Virus record (IMG/VR): IMGVR_UViG_3300020020_000013
Coordinates: 1 to 40,980 of that record
Strand: one strand, 5' to 3'
Source of the DNA: a virus
Length of the DNA: 40,980 bases
Shown here: positions 1 to 40,980 of the stretch, one piece after another
How the letters are laid out: every line of letters begins with the position of its first letter
Position numbering within the stretch: position 1 is the stretch's first letter
Program-made: the position numbers and the translations under genes
Notes under the pieces: model-generated
Told to the model about the DNA's origin: nothing
Databases searched by the model: none
What the model saw: only the letters and a program-made list of their open reading frames with translations

Positions 1-127
1 AGCTAGTGGTTGGAGAGAAATTAAAATATCTATTAACAAAACTCTGTGCCTGCTGTTACTTATATGACCAAATATTTAATTAAACTTAAATGTTGGCGGG
101 GAAACCTCTTCGGATCTCCCTCTCTAT
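1..127. repeat. Left copy of terminal direct repeat (circular junction)
   Basis: Bases 1-127 are identical to bases 40854-40980. The unit genome is therefore 40,853 bp and closes into a circle, or has a terminal redundancy. A 127-base overlap equals a common maximum assembler k-mer, so it is probably an assembly overlap rather than a physical repeat. The junction falls inside the portal gene and its intron, which closing the circle restores. Confidence 0.95.
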
Positions 128-351
128 GTTACCATAGAGATCAGACTGTCGCTTCATCTTTCGACGTCTCCTCACTCAGTCGTTCACGGTGCTTTCGCTT
201 CCGCCTTGTCTTCCCATAAGGAGGTCCAAGTCAATCAGAGGAGATTTATACAGGGCCACAACCTAAAAATTAATTAACCCTGCGTAAAACAATGTATCAA
301 TATTAGATTGATTCCAGCGCTTTTAATTGCTTTACTAACAGTCCCGCTTTA
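53..351 (-). ncRNA. Group I self-splicing intron in the portal gene
   Basis: About 299 nt, noncoding, separating two in-frame portal segments. Helices visible by eye on the - strand: P1 359-352/344-337 with U352.G344 at the 5' splice site; P2 335-326/293-284; a P2 branch 282-278/255-251; P3 CTCCTC 243-238 with GAGGAG 173-168; P7 GACTG 181-177 with CAGTC 148-144; P8 CGTC/GATG 166-155 closed by a GAAA tetraloop; P9 140-133/128-121 closed by a GTAA (GNRA) tetraloop. The order P1-P2-P3-P7-P3'-P8-P7'-P9 and the J8/7 segment AAGCGA are those of group I introns. The 3' splice site must follow a G and keep frame; G53 or G50 both work. There is no ORF inside the intron. Confidence 0.87.
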
Positions 352-459
352 AGACTGTTCTATAGGTTGAAATTTTGAATATAGATTATCTAGCCATTGT
401 CGAACACTTCCAGAACTTGGTTCTAAATCAGAATTCCATGGTGGATAATAAAATGACAA
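352..459 (-). CDS. Portal protein, exon 1 (N-terminal 36 residues)
   Basis: The frame opens at a TTG (459-457) preceded by a strong AAAGGAGGAA ribosome site and encodes 36 residues, beginning MSFYYPPWNS and ending KFQPIEQS. It meets a TAA three bases into the intron. The last eight exon bases (359-352) pair with an internal guide inside the intron (344-337) to form P1, with a U.G pair at the splice site. Joined to exon 2 the frame is continuous and gives about 692 residues, close to the 725 of P22 portal. The upstream HNH gene ends 21 bases before this start. A TTG start is less usual, but no ATG is available and the ribosome site is excellent. Confidence 0.8.
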
Positions 460-479
460 ATTTCCTCCTTTATTAAGGT

Positions 480-1154
480 CTATTCTTTGACTACTTTATA
501 CCCGTAATGATTCAAAAATTCAATGCACCATTCAATTTTATCTTTTACTCTTTGGCCAGGAGGTTGACCTATTGCCCATAATTCAAGATTTTCCAACCTA
601 TTATCGTCACGTATACCATTTTTATGATGCACTCTTTCGTTCTTTAAAAGATTTCTGCCTAAATACTTTTCCATCACAATTACATGTTCATATTTACTTA
701 CATATTTCTTCGTTATTTGATCCTTTTTCCAAAATCTTCGATATCCCTTTATATTTACATAACCCTCTCCCTTAGGTCCTTTAGGAAATACATGATCGAC
801 AGGCAGGCCTAATCTTTCTCTGCGCTTTGCATTATGCCTTTCTGCAACCTTACGCCGAACTTGAGCAAACAGTTCAGGTGTGTTGTTTTTATACCAATGA
901 TATTGACAGGTAGTACATCTTTTATATTTTGCTTTATAAAAGAATTCTTTCTCACAATCTATGCATCTATTTGGAATTTTATCTCTACATTTTACACAGT
1001 ATTTTTTATGACCTAAATTTGACACTTCACTACAAATTGCACATGCGGTTTCTTTTTTCTGATATTTTAATTCATGATATCTTTTGTAATAGCAGCTTTT
1101 ACAAACTTCAGATCTACGTTTGTGAAGCGTTTTGCACTGGACACAAACATTCAT
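480..1154 (-). CDS. Free-standing HNH homing endonuclease with zinc fingers
   Basis: This 224-residue protein carries an HNH nuclease core in its C-terminal half: H157 in EHVIVMEKYLGR, the H176-H177 pair in ERVHHKNG, then N185 and N189 before ENLELW. This is the signature of phage intron-associated HNH enzymes. Residues 4-83 hold five or six CxxC pairs, probably zinc-binding DNA-recognition knuckles. The ATG has an AAGGAG ribosome site. The gene is not inside the intron; it ends 21 bases upstream of the portal start, so intron and endonuclease are separate neighbours. It probably cleaves intronless portal alleles so that repair copies both elements. The family call is firm; the target is inferred. 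Confidence 0.85.
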   Translation of the reverse strand: MNVCVQCKTLHKRRSEVCKSCYYKRYHELKYQKKETACAICSEVSNLGHKKYCVKCRDKIPNRCIDCEKEFFYKAKYKRCTTCQYHWYKNNTPELFAQVRRKVAERHNAKRRERLGLPVDHVFPKGPKGEGYVNIKGYRRFWKKDQITKKYVSKYEHVIVMEKYLGRNLLKNERVHHKNGIRDDNRLENLELWAIGQPPGQRVKDKIEWCIEFLNHYGYKVVKE

Positions 1155-1270
1155 AGCACTCCTTATGAATTATTTCGAAAATGCATCAATTGTAAACTAT
1201 GAACGAATGATTGCAACTTAAATTAAAATATTGCAACTTATCATATTTGATGTCATATTGCCTCATCTTT

Positions 1271-4080: not shown

Positions 4081-4314
4081 ATGATTTTGCACAGGCTTTG
4101 TGTTTTCTTTAGTTTTTTCCTCACTGTCGTTACGTTCCTCCTGATTCTAATCACATTTCCCATCTCATTTCCTTTGATTCTTACTGCTTTATACATAAGA
4201 AAGAAGTTTCGAAAACCTTATGACCCTAGCAAGAAGTTTGACTGTTATGCAGATCAGATGGAGTATAGAATGACCCATGGTGTTGGCAGGTGGTCTGATT
4301 GGGATAAATCATAA
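4081..4314 (+). CDS. Small membrane protein
   Basis: Encodes 77 residues. Residues ~5-40 form one long or two short hydrophobic helices (VFFSFFLTVVTFLLILITF), followed by a basic cytoplasmic-looking stretch KKFRKPYDPSKKF. A GAGGA ribosome site precedes the ATG. It starts 65 bases from the divergent terminase gene and heads the + strand island. Function unknown. Confidence 0.6.
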   Translation: MILHRLCVFFSFFLTVVTFLLILITFPISFPLILTALYIRKKFRKPYDPSKKFDCYADQMEYRMTHGVGRWSDWDKS

Positions 4315-4331
4315 AAAGCTTAGGAATAATC

Positions 4332-4529
4332 ATGTCACATAGTCCCTTAGCTAAATTTGCAATGAGTAACAGCTCACATCAAGCCTATGCATTTCATCAA
4401 GCCAACGAAGCCAACAAAGAAATACAAAAGATCCTTCAAGAAATAGAAGAGAGGAATTCCCGCGTCCAGTCTTTAAAAGATCAGATAATAGCTGCTCTAG
4501 GTGAACAATTGAAGGAAGTAAAAAAATGA
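4332..4529 (+). CDS. Hypothetical coiled-coil protein
   Basis: Encodes 65 residues. The C-terminal half (NEANKEIQKILQEIEERN and on) is a likely coiled coil. The ATG follows TTAGGAAT. Its stop overlaps the next ATG as ATGA, so the two are coupled. Confidence 0.6.
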   Translation: MSHSPLAKFAMSNSSHQAYAFHQANEANKEIQKILQEIEERNSRVQSLKDQIIAALGEQLKEVKK

Positions 4530-4723
4530 GCATTAATCCAGTCCATTATCAGTCTATTTGCTGCTGTTTCTTTTGTAAGAGCGAAGACAATGAGATTAAG
4601 ACACCTAATAAGCCTAAAGATGCTGGGTGTGATCCTGTAGACAGGAAGCCAGAATTAGTAAAGAAACGAAGCTATTATTGGCTGCAGTCATGGGAAAAGA
4701 ATGACAGACAAGACAGGAAGTGA
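4526..4723 (+). CDS. Cys-rich small protein, paralogue A
   Basis: Encodes 65 residues: MSINPVHYQS, then a cysteine run (CCCFFCKS), a variable middle, and a conserved tail KKRSYYWLQSWEKND. A second copy lies at 5211-5420 with the same two conserved ends, so this is a local duplication. The cysteine cluster could bind metal or be lipid-modified, but there is no clear signal peptide. Family unknown. Confidence 0.6.
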   Translation: MSINPVHYQSICCCFFCKSEDNEIKTPNKPKDAGCDPVDRKPELVKKRSYYWLQSWEKNDRQDRK

Positions 4724-4805
4724 GGACTTCACAATGATTAAATACATCCAAACAAAGAAAGCAAAATACTCAAAACTTTTGAAAATCAAACACAATAGGA
4801 AAATT

Positions 4806-5048
4806 ATGTTTTATCGCGTACTCAGATTTGTTTTTTTAGTTCTAACTTGCGGCTTTTATACTATGCATGTAGCAGCCTATGAAATTCCAATCGAACCTAG
4901 AACCCCAGAGAAAATGCAGGAAGAAAGTGATCGAAATAATCCGGGGAATGAATATGAGAGAAAGGCATTAGATCAAATTGACCCGGACAATGCACCTCAT
5001 TCAGAAGAAGATAGAAAGAACTGGGCGTCGCCATTCCGTGATGATTAA
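4806..5048 (+). CDS. Predicted exported small protein
   Basis: From the ATG at 4806 the protein has 80 residues and begins with a clear signal peptide (MFYRVLRFVFLVLTCGFYTM, with likely cleavage after HVAA). The mature part is short, hydrophilic and proline/acid-rich. An AGGAAA site lies just upstream of 4806. Upstream in-frame starts at 4734 and 4701 would add a basic extension and hide the signal peptide, so 4806 is preferred, though not certain. Function unknown. Confidence 0.5.
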   Translation: MFYRVLRFVFLVLTCGFYTMHVAAYEIPIEPRTPEKMQEESDRNNPGNEYERKALDQIDPDNAPHSEEDRKNWASPFRDD

Positions 5049-30367: not shown

Positions 30368-31567
30368 CTAAGTACCTCCGCCAAATCCGTTAGCTGCCCC
30401 ACCATTTTGGGCAAACCCTTGGCTGTAGATTGTTTCTGTTCTTGTTGCTGTCCATTGACGTTGGCTTCTCTTCCAAACAAGCAGCTCTTGTTCTCTAAAG
30501 AGCGGCTCATAGAACTGGAACTGCTCTATATCGCCAGTATCAGAAAGAATTTTTCTAGCAGCGCCTCTAGCAATGTATTCCGCCATGTATCCAAAAGGAA
30601 TGGCTGCCGCTGTGTTTAAGAAGGCTGCTGGTGACAGATATGCATCAATTTCTACCAAATACTGCTGATCTGGAGGGCTTCTTAAAGTAAGTGTATTATT
30701 ATAGAATAGAACGCCTCGTGGAAGCCCTGTCTGAAAGAAAAACACTTGAGCTGTGATGTTATTTCCAGCTGGAATTACCACCGGGAAATTAACGTTAACT
30801 TCACCAGTAATATAGTTGATAGTATTGTCAAAGGTATCATAGTCACCCGTAAGCCTTAAGTTTCCAAGCGGAGCCTTTCCAGGCTGCATGAGAAGCCCAT
30901 AATTTTGATTATTACTCAAAAACCATCCGCTATCTGCAACTACTACATTGGAATTATTAGCTCCAAGTGCAGTGAGGTAAACTGCCGAATCAACACTAGT
31001 AACCGGAACAGACGCAATCGAAGCTCCCGCTGTTGCATCTGTAGCAAGCGGAGGATCTACATTATTCCCAGTAGCAATAATTCCTGTGATATCCACATGA
31101 CCACGTAAAACCCCATCTAAAGGAGGATTTGGAGGTGTTGATCCAGGCAAAATTGGGATTTGAATAGTATAAGGTCCTGAAGTTCCATCACCAGTAGCTA
31201 TCACACCCAAATTCTGAACAACATTCGGATAGATATTAAAGAACTGATTCTTCTGTGTGAATAGAGGCACCTGGATGCCATTTATATAAGCCGGACCTGT
31301 AAAACCCTGATAAACAGGAAACATGCCTATAGTTTGGTTTCCAGGCTGTGTTTGCACGCTATAAAGCGGCATGTTGTACTTATCGATAGCAGGCGTTGTT
31401 TGAAACTGATATTTTGTTTTAAGATCAAAAAGCTGAATGCGCGCATCAAGATCAACTATATAAAATCTATTTATATAATCTATGATTAAGTTGTCAGAAA
31501 TAACAGCATTACTTGGACTTTTAATTATTCTTCTAACATAAGTAATTATGTCGCTCAAAAGCATCAT
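30368..31567 (-). CDS. Head-tail adaptor-like protein
   Basis: Encodes 399 residues from the ATG at 31567, which overlaps the HNH stop as ATGA; the longer ORF to 31603 is not needed. The helical N-terminus (LSDIITYVRRIIKSPSNAV, LIIDYINRFYIVDLDARIQ) then beta domains suggest a P22 gp4-type adaptor with an added domain. It lies between capsid and tail-hub genes, as expected. Ends with QNGGAANGFGGGT. Confidence 0.6.
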   Translation of the reverse strand: MMLLSDIITYVRRIIKSPSNAVISDNLIIDYINRFYIVDLDARIQLFDLKTKYQFQTTPAIDKYNMPLYSVQTQPGNQTIGMFPVYQGFTGPAYINGIQVPLFTQKNQFFNIYPNVVQNLGVIATGDGTSGPYTIQIPILPGSTPPNPPLDGVLRGHVDITGIIATGNNVDPPLATDATAGASIASVPVTSVDSAVYLTALGANNSNVVVADSGWFLSNNQNYGLLMQPGKAPLGNLRLTGDYDTFDNTINYITGEVNVNFPVVIPAGNNITAQVFFFQTGLPRGVLFYNNTLTLRSPPDQQYLVEIDAYLSPAAFLNTAAAIPFGYMAEYIARGAARKILSDTGDIEQFQFYEPLFREQELLVWKRSQRQWTATRTETIYSQGFAQNGGAANGFGGGT

Positions 31568-32073
31568 AGTAATACTGTCCTTGGTGATTTTCTCATATGG
31601 CAAACTTTACATAACCAGATCACCGAAAGAGGCTTAGTATAATCATTATGGTGACCATCTGGTTTACACTTGTTGCCACATTCTGAACAAAAATCAGGTC
31701 TTGAAATTTTACCTATATCTATAGCTCTTTTTAACATAACATTCGCTCTACGTTTCTCTTTGTTATTCTGATACCATTTTCTTCCATATTCATTTAATTT
31801 TTCTCTATTTCGATCTCGCCAATTTTTATGTTTTAACCTATTTCTTTCGAATCGATTATCATCATTTTTTCTGCGTAAAGCTTCTCTTATAGATATACTT
31901 TCTAAATTTTTTATTCTATATTCATTTTGATTATTTAATTTTCGTTGTCTATTTGTTAAATAATAATTTTTTACACATTTTTTACACTGACGATCTAATC
32001 CATCAGGTTGTCGTATTTTTTTATAAAACTCAGTTAACTCTTTTGTTTCTTTGCATGTACAACACTTTTTCAT
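31564..32073 (-). CDS. HNH endonuclease with zinc motifs (second copy type)
   Basis: Encodes 169 residues. An N-terminal CCTCKETKELTEFYK ... CKKC zinc motif and a C-terminal treble clef (FCSECGNKC, then GHHNDYTKPLSV and WLCKVCH) form an HNH nuclease resembling endonuclease-VII-like phage enzymes. It is not closely similar to the HNH at 480-1154. It sits inside the structural operon between two virion genes and is coupled to the next gene by ATGA, as free-standing homing endonucleases often are. Confidence 0.8.
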   Translation of the reverse strand: MKKCCTCKETKELTEFYKKIRQPDGLDRQCKKCVKNYYLTNRQRKLNNQNEYRIKNLESISIREALRRKNDDNRFERNRLKHKNWRDRNREKLNEYGRKWYQNNKEKRRANVMLKRAIDIGKISRPDFCSECGNKCKPDGHHNDYTKPLSVIWLCKVCHMRKSPRTVLL

Positions 32074-38934: not shown

Positions 38935-40905
38935 CTATGCTACGCCGCTTTCATTTTGAAGAGGTCCTCGTTGCATTGATCCAAGAATTTGCTCCACAAA
39001 TTTCTTTGTAGCTTCATCATGCTCCACATCCGCGCGAGCATTTTTCTCAACTTCTTCTTCATCATATTTAATTGATTCCAATTGATTTGACTTTAGGAAA
39101 GTCTCTACTTCTCCGAACTTTTGGATTGTTTCTAAAAGCTGAGTAAGAGCTGCCATTTTTTCTTTTGTTGCCAAAGCATGGTTCTTTGAAATCATACTCA
39201 TACGCTCTTCGAATAGACCAACATTACTTTCAGACCTTGAGTCTCTTTCTCTTGCTTGAGAAAGTTGATTATGGATTCTTGCCATCATCTCTTTCATTTG
39301 CATTTCTTCAAGTGTATGTTGCAGATTCTGTGCTTCAGATTGAACTGCTGCAGCCTGCTGTTCTTGTTGCTGCAAGAACTCAATAATTTCTCCCTTGCCA
39401 GTGATATTTAGCTTAGGAATGATCATAGATGGGGGGAATACCTCACGACCAAACGTCTGATTGATATCCATCATCTGCTGAGCTTGAAGATTCTGCTGCA
39501 GAGGTGTTAGGTCTGCCTCTTCTACAACCGTGTTGTATTTGCAGAAAACTTTAGAGTAGAAATATGGTGACGGCTCTTCACCTATAAGCATTTGTACTTT
39601 AGGCGCTTCCCAATTATTGAGAACAATTTCCATAAGTCTTTCGCCTAGAAGCTTGAGCGAATAATCCCACTGATCAAAATATTTCTGGAATACCATCAGA
39701 TTGGCAGCTGACTTTAGCATCATGGTAAGAGAGGAAATCTGCTTATCTTGTTGACCAGACCAGTTTTCCATATTAATGCCAGACGTTTGCTGGATTAAAT
39801 CAGCCATTTGCTGAGCAAGTTCTAGATCAGACTGAGGAACTGCACTTGGAATAATCTTTTCAACATCTGATAGTTCGTAACCTTCATTGATAATGACGTC
39901 ATAACCCTGGCCCGATTTCTTCAGGTTATCTTCATTTGCGACAGCTCCTGATTTTCTTTTCCATCCGGCATTGATTGTAGCTGCTGCTATGTCATTGTTG
40001 GTTATTATCTTATAGTTAAACAAAAACTGAGGATCGCGCATTGTACGTACAAGAGACCTAACGCGAAGATCATGGTAATTAATATGAGGCTCATAATTCC
40101 AAAAGACAGGAATAAACGGACAACCGTCAAAGCCCAGTGGATTGTCTCCTTGAAACATGAGCTGATCGTTAAGTACAACGGCAAGCTTCCAGCAAGGAAC
40201 TTCAACTGTAACCTCTTCCATGTCTGGAATATTGTATAAAAGGGCTTCCATCTGGGAATCCCCACCAGCAAAATCGAAGAACTGATTCCTTGATTTACTA
40301 TAAAGACGTTTTTTGCTTTTTTTCCATTTATACCAAACATAAGAGAGCACCATTAAGTCATTACGCGCCATGTTATAATTCTCAGGGAGAAAGTAAAAAC
40401 TTCCATATCTCTGAGGTGTTCCAGCCATGGGTGTAATGATATCTTTTTTATCTGGAAATCTGTCTTCTGCTTCTTTTTTACTTATATATTCCTGACACCA
40501 GACAAATTGAGCATCAGACATATCAGGATTTCTGAAATAGGGATCTACTAGGAAAGAATTATATTCCCAAACCTTAAGCTTTAAATCCCCCTGGGCTTGG
40601 TCATCTCCAGTAAAATCCAAGTAAGGCTGCAACAAAACCATGCCAGAAACAGCAGCAAGCTCGCATGCCTTAGAAAATTGCTCATGAACACCTTCTTTGT
40701 TAGCAACATGCATCATTAACTTAGTGTATTGATCCGTTGTCTGTGGATCTGCGCCTTCAGATGATTCGTACATGATCGCTTTACGATGCTGACGCTGATA
40801 ACCCGTAATCATATTCACGGGCTGCTGAATCAAATTGAAGTAATACTGTTGATAGCTAGTGGTTGGAGAGAAATTAAAATATCTATTAACAAAACTCTGT
40901 GCCTG
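38935..40905 (-). CDS. Portal protein, exon 2 (P22-like head-tail portal)
   Basis: The portal forms the dodecameric ring at the capsid vertex through which DNA enters and leaves, and it docks the terminase. Exon 2 encodes about 656 residues, starting QAQSFVNRYFNF if the splice follows G53 (40905 is base 52 on the circle). The early segment IQQPVNMITGYQRQHRK and the later Gln-rich coiled-coil tail are typical of P22-type portals. Taken alone the ORF would start at a TTG at 40833, but sequence upstream of that codon is clearly conserved-looking portal, so that start is rejected. The gene lies immediately upstream of small virion genes and the scaffold, as in P22-like head operons. Confidence 0.85.
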   Translation of the reverse strand, partial: QAQSFVNRYFNFSPTTSYQQYYFNLIQQPVNMITGYQRQHRKAIMYESSEGADPQTTDQYTKLMMHVANKEGVHEQFSKACELAAVSGMVLLQPYLDFTGDDQAQGDLKLKVWEYNSFLVDPYFRNPDMSDAQFVWCQEYISKKEAEDRFPDKKDIITPMAGTPQRYGSFYFLPENYNMARNDLMVLSYVWYKWKKSKKRLYSKSRNQFFDFAGGDSQMEALLYNIPDMEEVTVEVPCWKLAVVLNDQLMFQGDNPLGFDGCPFIPVFWNYEPHINYHDLRVRSLVRTMRDPQFLFNYKIITNNDIAAATINAGWKRKSGAVANEDNLKKSGQGYDVIINEGYELSDVEKIIPSAVPQSDLELAQQMADLIQQTSGINMENWSGQQDKQISSLTMMLKSAANLMVFQKYFDQWDYSLKLLGERLMEIVLNNWEAPKVQMLIGEEPSPYFYSKVFCKYNTVVEEADLTPLQQNLQAQQMMDINQTFGREVFPPSMIIPKLNITGKGEIIEFLQQQEQQAAAVQSEAQNLQHTLEEMQMKEMMARIHNQLSQARERDSRSESNVGLFEERMSMISKNHALATKEKMAALTQLLETIQKFGEVETFLKSNQLESIKYDEEEVEKNARADVEHDEATKKFVEQILGSMQRGPLQNESGVA

Positions 40906-40980
40906 CTGTTACTTATATGACCAAATATTTAATTAAACTTAAATGTTGGCGGGGAAACCTCTTCGGATCTCCCTCTCTAT
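40854..40980. repeat. Right copy of terminal direct repeat (circular junction)
   Basis: Exact copy of bases 1-127. It lets the portal reading frame be followed in this window up to base 40905, which is the same base as 52. Confidence 0.95.

Follow-up and report, generated by a model that had tools for sequence, protein, structure and literature searches.

A probable coreless satellite intron beside a group I intron in an HNH-associated cassette of a phage portal gene

Introduction

Phage group I introns (PMC3984707), including those of Bastillevirinae (PMC11878797) and Cluster J (PMC3706429), combine a P3-P8 core with a P1 helix carrying a U.G pair, a P10 pairing and a terminal G, and in Cluster J a capsid gene, i.e. 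a structural gene, serves as host (PMC3706429). In collaborative homing a free-standing HNH endonuclease gene lies next to an ORF-less intron, and replacement of the cassette leaves the flanking exon changed (PMC3984707, PMC2988022). An engineered Tetrahymena group I ribozyme, the spliceozyme, excises coreless introns of 64-100 nt in vitro and in E. coli, with a single core recognizing both splice sites (PMC4094466). The T4 mobA-gene 60 cassette places an HNH gene beside a short stop-bearing insertion in an essential gene, seemingly as one moving cassette. Group III introns of euglenid chloroplasts, which are organellar and derived from group II introns, are short and degenerate and are thought to depend on catalytic parts supplied elsewhere.

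Here we analyse the portal gene of a virus (IMG/VR record IMGVR_UViG_3300020020_000013, positions 1 to 40,980; this whole stretch of 40,980 nucleotides is termed the window). Its intron B shares the core, the U.G pair, P10, the terminal G and a structural host gene with the known phage introns and is ORF-less, but it is unmatched by the Rfam group I model RF00028 and would serve a second intron upstream, insert A, which is devoid of any P3-P9. As in the spliceozyme, one core is proposed to act on both sites of a short coreless intron; there, however, the ribozyme is engineered, works in trans and carries the guides, whereas here the guide (IGS) lies within the natural insert and the neighbouring core is located in cis (PMC4094466). 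The T4 gap is skipped by the ribosome, while insert A pairs as group I splice sites do and comes with a partner core. Compared with collaborative homing, the cassette holds two introns, one of them coreless, and cutting by its HNH enzyme is putative. In its proposed reliance on outside catalytic parts insert A can be likened to group III introns. The open-access papers searched contained no natural group I intron lacking a core or ribozyme, nor any group I analogue of group III introns. The nearest precedents are the engineered spliceozymes and the T4 mobA/gene 60 cassette. The latter is known, as are group I introns and collaborative homing; a satellite intron that uses the ribozyme of its neighbour seems to be a novel variant.

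Results

Two insertions split the portal gene

The window is a circular phage contig whose ends share 127 identical bases (40854-40980 repeat 1-127). It encodes a P22-type portal (PF16510, profile match with E=3.9e-54), and the same arrangement is present in an independent contig (L001) with 99.99% identity over 7177 bases. A search of the phage collection with the portal protein at 1e-5 gave no matches. The host search against bacterial and archaeal genomes returned bins of Bacteroidetes, Nitrospiraceae, Pseudomonadota, Patescibacteria and Peregrinibacteria, and scanning for a spliced or empty site identified L507, a relative without introns.

To define the exons we used 80 IMG/VR portal homologues and a splice-aware aligner of proteins to DNA that was given no preference for particular splice sites. 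For the window the aligner reports an insertion of 32 nt that separates EQS from RWN, and one of 228 nt within a Gly-Ser junction. Both insertions are defined by the homologues, independent of any splice-site assumption, and their excision yields a 705-residue portal that matches the intronless portal exactly. The features of the locus are collected in Table 1.

Table 1. Positions of portal exons, insertions, RNA helices and neighbouring elements in the window and in related contigs
Feature	Position	Strand	Detail or basis
HNH endonuclease gene, free-standing	480..1154	-	directly upstream of portal; PF13392 2.3e-9, phrog_20891 3.8e-18
Replaced cassette (HNH, exon 1, A, exon 2, B)	42..1249	-	versus phage L004, about 1.2 kb
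Ribosome site AAGGAGG	just 5' of exon 1 TTG	-	sequence
Portal exon 1	352..459	-	36 codons, TTG start, ends ...PIEQS; sequence and homologue alignment
Insert A, 32-nt coreless mini-intron	320..351	-	TAAAGCGGGACTGTTAGTAAAGCAATTAAAAG; protein-to-DNA alignment and boundary test
Portal exon 2, 43 nt	277..319	-	RWNQSNIDTLFYAG plus base 1 of Ser codon; conserved in all intronless homologues
Intron B, group I, full core, 228 nt	49..276	-	alignment and core covariation
Portal exon 3, first part	1..48	-	begins CACAGAG; continues at 40853 round the circle
Portal exon 3, rest	38935..40853	-	sequence, profile match, end overlap
P1 of insert A	337..359	-	exon AACAGUCU (359-352) pairs with GGACUGUU (344-337); U352.G344 at splice site
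P10 of insert A	316..348	-	AGCG (348-345) pairs with exon-2 start CGCU (319-316), 4 bp
P1 of intron B	250..283	-	exon GCAGGGU (283-277) pairs with GCCCUGU (256-250); U.G at splice site
P10 of intron B	261-257 with 48-44	-	UUGUG with CACAG; direct reading of sequence
Catalytic core of intron B	144..244	-	covariation, 55 unique family members
Core helix P3	244-238/173-167	-	
Core helix P4	230-227/208-205	-	
Core helix P7	181-177/148-144	-	
Core helix P8	166-155	-	GAAA loop
953-nt coreless intron	L346 10662-11615; L048 from about 10725		MCP codon 104
Hairpin insertions	L007 2909-3110; L019 2973-3180; L041 2249-2450; L060 4791-5000; L072 2897-3100		

On the minus strand the portal starts with a TTG at 459, crosses position 1 and continues round the circle as far as 38935, which bears out the course given in the preliminary description. 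Its claim that a group I intron splits the gene, so that the full portal requires splicing, is supported, and the elements it listed (P1 with U352.G344, P3, P7, P8 with GAAA, P9 with GTAA, and an in-frame stop directly 3' of exon 1) are all present. What it took for one intron of about 299 nt, however, is two insertions flanking a 43-nt coding exon. The stretch assigned to P2 is this conserved exon, the P1 belongs to insert A while intron B has its own, and the 3' splice site, placed after G53 or G50, lies after base 49, which gives a joined Ser codon (T from exon 2, CA from exon 3) and the sequence AGSQSFVNR as in the relatives. With exon 1 ending in EQS and the next segment starting with QAQSF, the portal proposed there must lack RWNQSNIDTLFYAG, which is encoded at 319-277 within the supposed intron; alignment to the intronless homologues, which read ...KFQPIEQSRWNQSNIDTLFYAGSQTFVNRYF..., accordingly finds exon 2 missing from that join. 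Nor is a portal host gene the unusual feature it was held to be: related phages commonly have introns of the intron B family in their portal, coat and capsid genes, and the real oddity is the second, coreless insert of 32 nt.

Exon 2 differs from 69 distinct intronless homologues by 539 synonymous and 35 non-synonymous codon changes, demonstrating that it is translated. This agrees with the comparison to phrog_156, where the portal with exon 2 scores 165.7 bits over profile positions 10-634, compared to 159.4 bits and the shorter reach of 57-634 for the join without it.

Insert A carries splice-site pairings but no core

Insert A opens with an in-frame stop and ends in G, and its splice boundaries fall between UCU and UAA (5') and between AAAAG and CGC (3'). 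The P1 helix comprises 8 bp and covaries in L338 (AACAGGCU with GGUCUGUU), and a P10 of the observed 4 bp is reached by only 1.5% of the site-swapped null. Insert A thus combines a P1 with U.G, a P10 and a terminal G. No catalytic core was found in it, its 32 nt being P1 and linker only, and we therefore call it a coreless satellite rather than a group I intron proper. An equivalent of GUAACAG, conserved near the 3' ends of full introns, is absent from it and partial in the insert of L338, which retains AAAGUAAC, resembling the 3' end of full introns. Insert A is kept with its pairings in five divergent phages.

Intron B has a complete group I core

Intron B shows the U.G at the 5' splice site in P1, the P10 and the terminal G; it is ORF-less and ends in ...CAGG. 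Its core belongs to a family with the common sequence CTGATTGACTYGGA. Among 55 unique members P3 is paired in 382 of 385 cells (shuffled maximum 304), P7 in all 275, and P8 in 204 of 220 (shuffled maximum 148). All three helices show many compensatory changes and pair beyond every shuffle, in agreement with a P3/P7 pseudoknotted core that includes P4, P6 and P8. The preliminary description had proposed a search with RF00028, which gives no match in the window even at E up to 10; this outcome is uninformative and reflects a limit of the model, since RF00028 also misses clear members of the family where tested (L024, L047, L059). Judged by its sequence features, intron B counts among the ordinary group I introns without an ORF.

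The core family has weak matches among annotated phages, for instance in the terminase region of the Bacillus phages AR9 and PBS1. Many introns of the same core family are also seen in the coat gene of the L083 family and the MCP gene of the L050 family, and some members carry opposite-strand ORFs in their loops (L347, L128, L344).

Short coreless insertions recur in structural genes

Related and unrelated metagenomic phages contain 28 distinct insertions of this kind (hereafter minis), 29-66 nt long, at seven sites in three structural genes: portal codons 7, 31 and 35, codon 39 of the P22-type coat gene, and MCP codons 88, 92 and 104. Insertions of 28 nt in L179 and 103 nt in L127 were excluded, as boundaries with a preceding U and a terminal G failed for them. 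All 28 unique minis allow such boundaries with the protein unchanged. A P1 of at least 6 contiguous bp is formed by 22 of 28, compared to 10% of site-swapped inserts, and a P10 of at least 4 bp by 21 of 28, compared to 1.5%. The six coat minis fall under the contiguous-pair count due to a single U.U mismatch in P1; apart from this mismatch the helix covaries. A few minis have a short P10 or none, namely those of L128, of L047 at codon 31 and some of the coat gene.

Covariation of P1 or P10 between relatives is found at several sites. In P1, CCUCCGU with GCGGAGG is replaced by CCUCCAU with GUGGAGG, GCUGUGGU with GCCUCAGU by GCAGUGGU with GCCUCUGC, and CUGCAU with GUGCAG by CUGCGU with GCGCAG. 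In P10, AAUCA with UGAUU corresponds to AAUUA with UAAUU, and GUACU with AGUAU to GUAUU with AAUAC. At portal codon 7, coat codon 39 and MCP codon 92 the insertion splits a codon, which can be restored only by splicing.

Minis are followed by a core-bearing intron

A core-bearing intron lies directly downstream of the mini in 28 of 28 cases, and never only upstream or elsewhere. Where measured by alignment, 27-171 nt of exon separate the two (43 nt for insert A and intron B); in L014, L049 and L067 the downstream core was assigned by its core motif. Among the portals, a full intron is present in 9 of 9 mini carriers compared to 3 of 77 others (Fisher p about 1e-10); an alternative count of 10 carriers arises because L001 duplicates the window. 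No second core motif was found in the window.

At MCP codon 104, L346 and L048 carry a coreless insertion of 953 nt with a P1 of 8 bp and a P10 of 5 bp, the IGS and P10 lying at the far end and a LAGLIDADG ORF (292 aa) inside the P1 loop. A full intron follows 38 nt downstream. As minis of 33 and 46 nt occupy the same codon in L146 and L067, the minis may be deletion derivatives of mobile coreless introns.

Five portals have a different type of insertion at the codon of insert A (L007, L019, L041, L060, L072). These are 47-54 nt long, form a near-perfect hairpin of about 17 bp after a CGG codon, contain stops and mostly return at CGN TGG. No group I core was found in the five contigs; HNH genes lie upstream in L007, L041 and L072. 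None of the five (0/5) passes the U and G boundary test, and they serve as an internal negative control for the minis. We consider them candidate T4-like translational bypass elements.

The insertions are associated with an HNH gene

An HNH gene or its remnant adjoins the 5' side of the portal in 12 of 17 insertion-bearing compared to 1 of 69 intronless loci. Phage L004 is otherwise 92-97% identical to the window around the cassette, which has been replaced as a block between flanks of 96-97% identity. Exon 3 differs from L004 at 8 of its first 60 bases and at none of the next 300, a pattern that looks like co-conversion during homing. An adjoining endonuclease gene and a block swap between near-identical genomes agree with an HNH homing cassette and with collaborative homing. 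That insert A and the hairpin insertions occupy the same portal codon suggests, but does not show, that the HNH enzyme cuts there.

In L025 a full HNH homologue (59% identical) is located at 4200-4850 upstream of an insertion-free portal, whose site reads EQARWNNSN compared to the usual SRWNQSN and is possibly a resistant target. A second putative endonuclease (phrog_2340) is encoded in the structural region of the window at 31564-32073, with no intron seen adjoining it. A ParA-like gene set on the opposite strand (1211-2538), between terminase and the HNH/portal region, is shared with L004.

Discussion

We propose, with a probability of roughly 0.78, that in insert A we see a satellite group I intron devoid of a core and excised by the ribozyme of intron B, the pair residing in an HNH cassette. 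Insert A would supply substrate parts only, i.e. the P1 guide that marks the 5' site by its U.G pair, the P10 that aligns the 3' exon, and the terminal G. Acting within the transcript that it shares with insert A or, once excised, as a free RNA in trans, the core of intron B would bind the P1 of insert A and catalyse attack by guanosine at the 5' boundary followed by ligation at the 3' boundary; by also removing itself, intron B would complete the portal mRNA. Both introns and the HNH gene upstream of them may move together as a homing cassette, with insertions at the likely target codon of the nuclease shielding the carrier. The order of steps, the HNH target and the mobility are part of this proposal, and that the core of intron B rather than another factor cuts insert A is what we infer from position and co-occurrence. 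The chemistry is plausible, as the spliceozyme removes coreless introns (PMC4094466). A difficulty for a one-core model is that two unlike P1 helices would compete for the single core, and that intron B must not leave before insert A unless it also acts in trans. The missing GUAACAG equivalent in insert A and the short or absent P10 of a few minis likewise count against the proposal.

The P1, P10 and G evidence fits equally well if insert A is excised by group I chemistry entirely in trans, by free intron B or by another intron or factor of phage or host, and spliceozymes do act in trans (PMC4094466). We regard this as unlikely, given that a core is found just downstream within the same gene for every mini and that the window has no second core motif. 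Still less probable is that insert A stays in the mRNA and is hopped over by ribosomes as in T4 gene 60, with the P1 hairpin and early stop as signals. Insert A was initially read as such a bypass, and the lengths of 29-66 nt, the immediate stop, the starting hairpin and the HNH neighbour do resemble T4 mobA/gene 60. Yet insert A has no matching take-off and landing codons (UCU compared to AAG before CGC), hopping cannot restore the split codons, the U.G, P10 and terminal G are unnecessary for it and nevertheless covary, the 953-nt version is too long, and an obligatory downstream group I core is not predicted. Because of the split codons at three of the seven sites, and because the covarying P1 and P10 are pairings used in splicing, we rejected bypass for the minis. 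This rejection does not extend to the hairpin insertions found at the portal codon of insert A, which do resemble bypass hairpins.

A model in which one group I intron of 299 nt spans 351 to about 53 and includes exon 2 can draw on a real P1 at 352/344 and on documented exon skipping between tandem group I introns (PMC10136302). We consider it very improbable, as it loses 13-14 residues strictly conserved across homologues and conflicts with the codon differences in exon 2 and the portal profile score. Moreover, with the correct 3' site, skipping exon 2 shifts the reading frame and leads to a stop, and intron B has its own P1, P10 and a constant partner architecture. It is similarly hard to credit that both insertions are decaying and that translation of the portal restarts at TTG 40833 or the gene is dead. 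An ORF finder indeed gives a 632-aa ORF from this TTG, but exons 1 and 2 are in frame and under purifying selection, insert A and its pairings are retained in five divergent phages, and the portal is essential in tailed phages.

Beyond this locus, phages probably carry widespread mobile coreless group I introns of about 30-950 nt. As satellites of group I introns, these would contain just the P1/P10 guide, in some cases with a LAGLIDADG gene inside the P1 loop, and would depend on the ribozyme that the following intron of their gene provides. If intron B does excise insert A, one natural group I ribozyme would remove two introns, the second being a guide-bearing substrate only. Substrate would thereby be parted from catalyst, a step often invoked for the origin of the spliceosome and modelled so far with engineered ribozymes, and group III introns would have a group I counterpart. 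Homing elements would also gain a new route into essential genes with as little as 29 nt. The signature of a U before the insertion, an internal IGS and a terminal G upstream of a core is simple and would let gene callers place the exons correctly where phage structural genes are split.

In the MCP gene of Faustovirus, seven of 12 introns have been called spliceosome-like on AA/TG boundaries, beside five group I introns (PMC6247863). These boundaries resemble those of the coreless minis, which follow a U, begin with AA and end in UG, and re-examination might be warranted.
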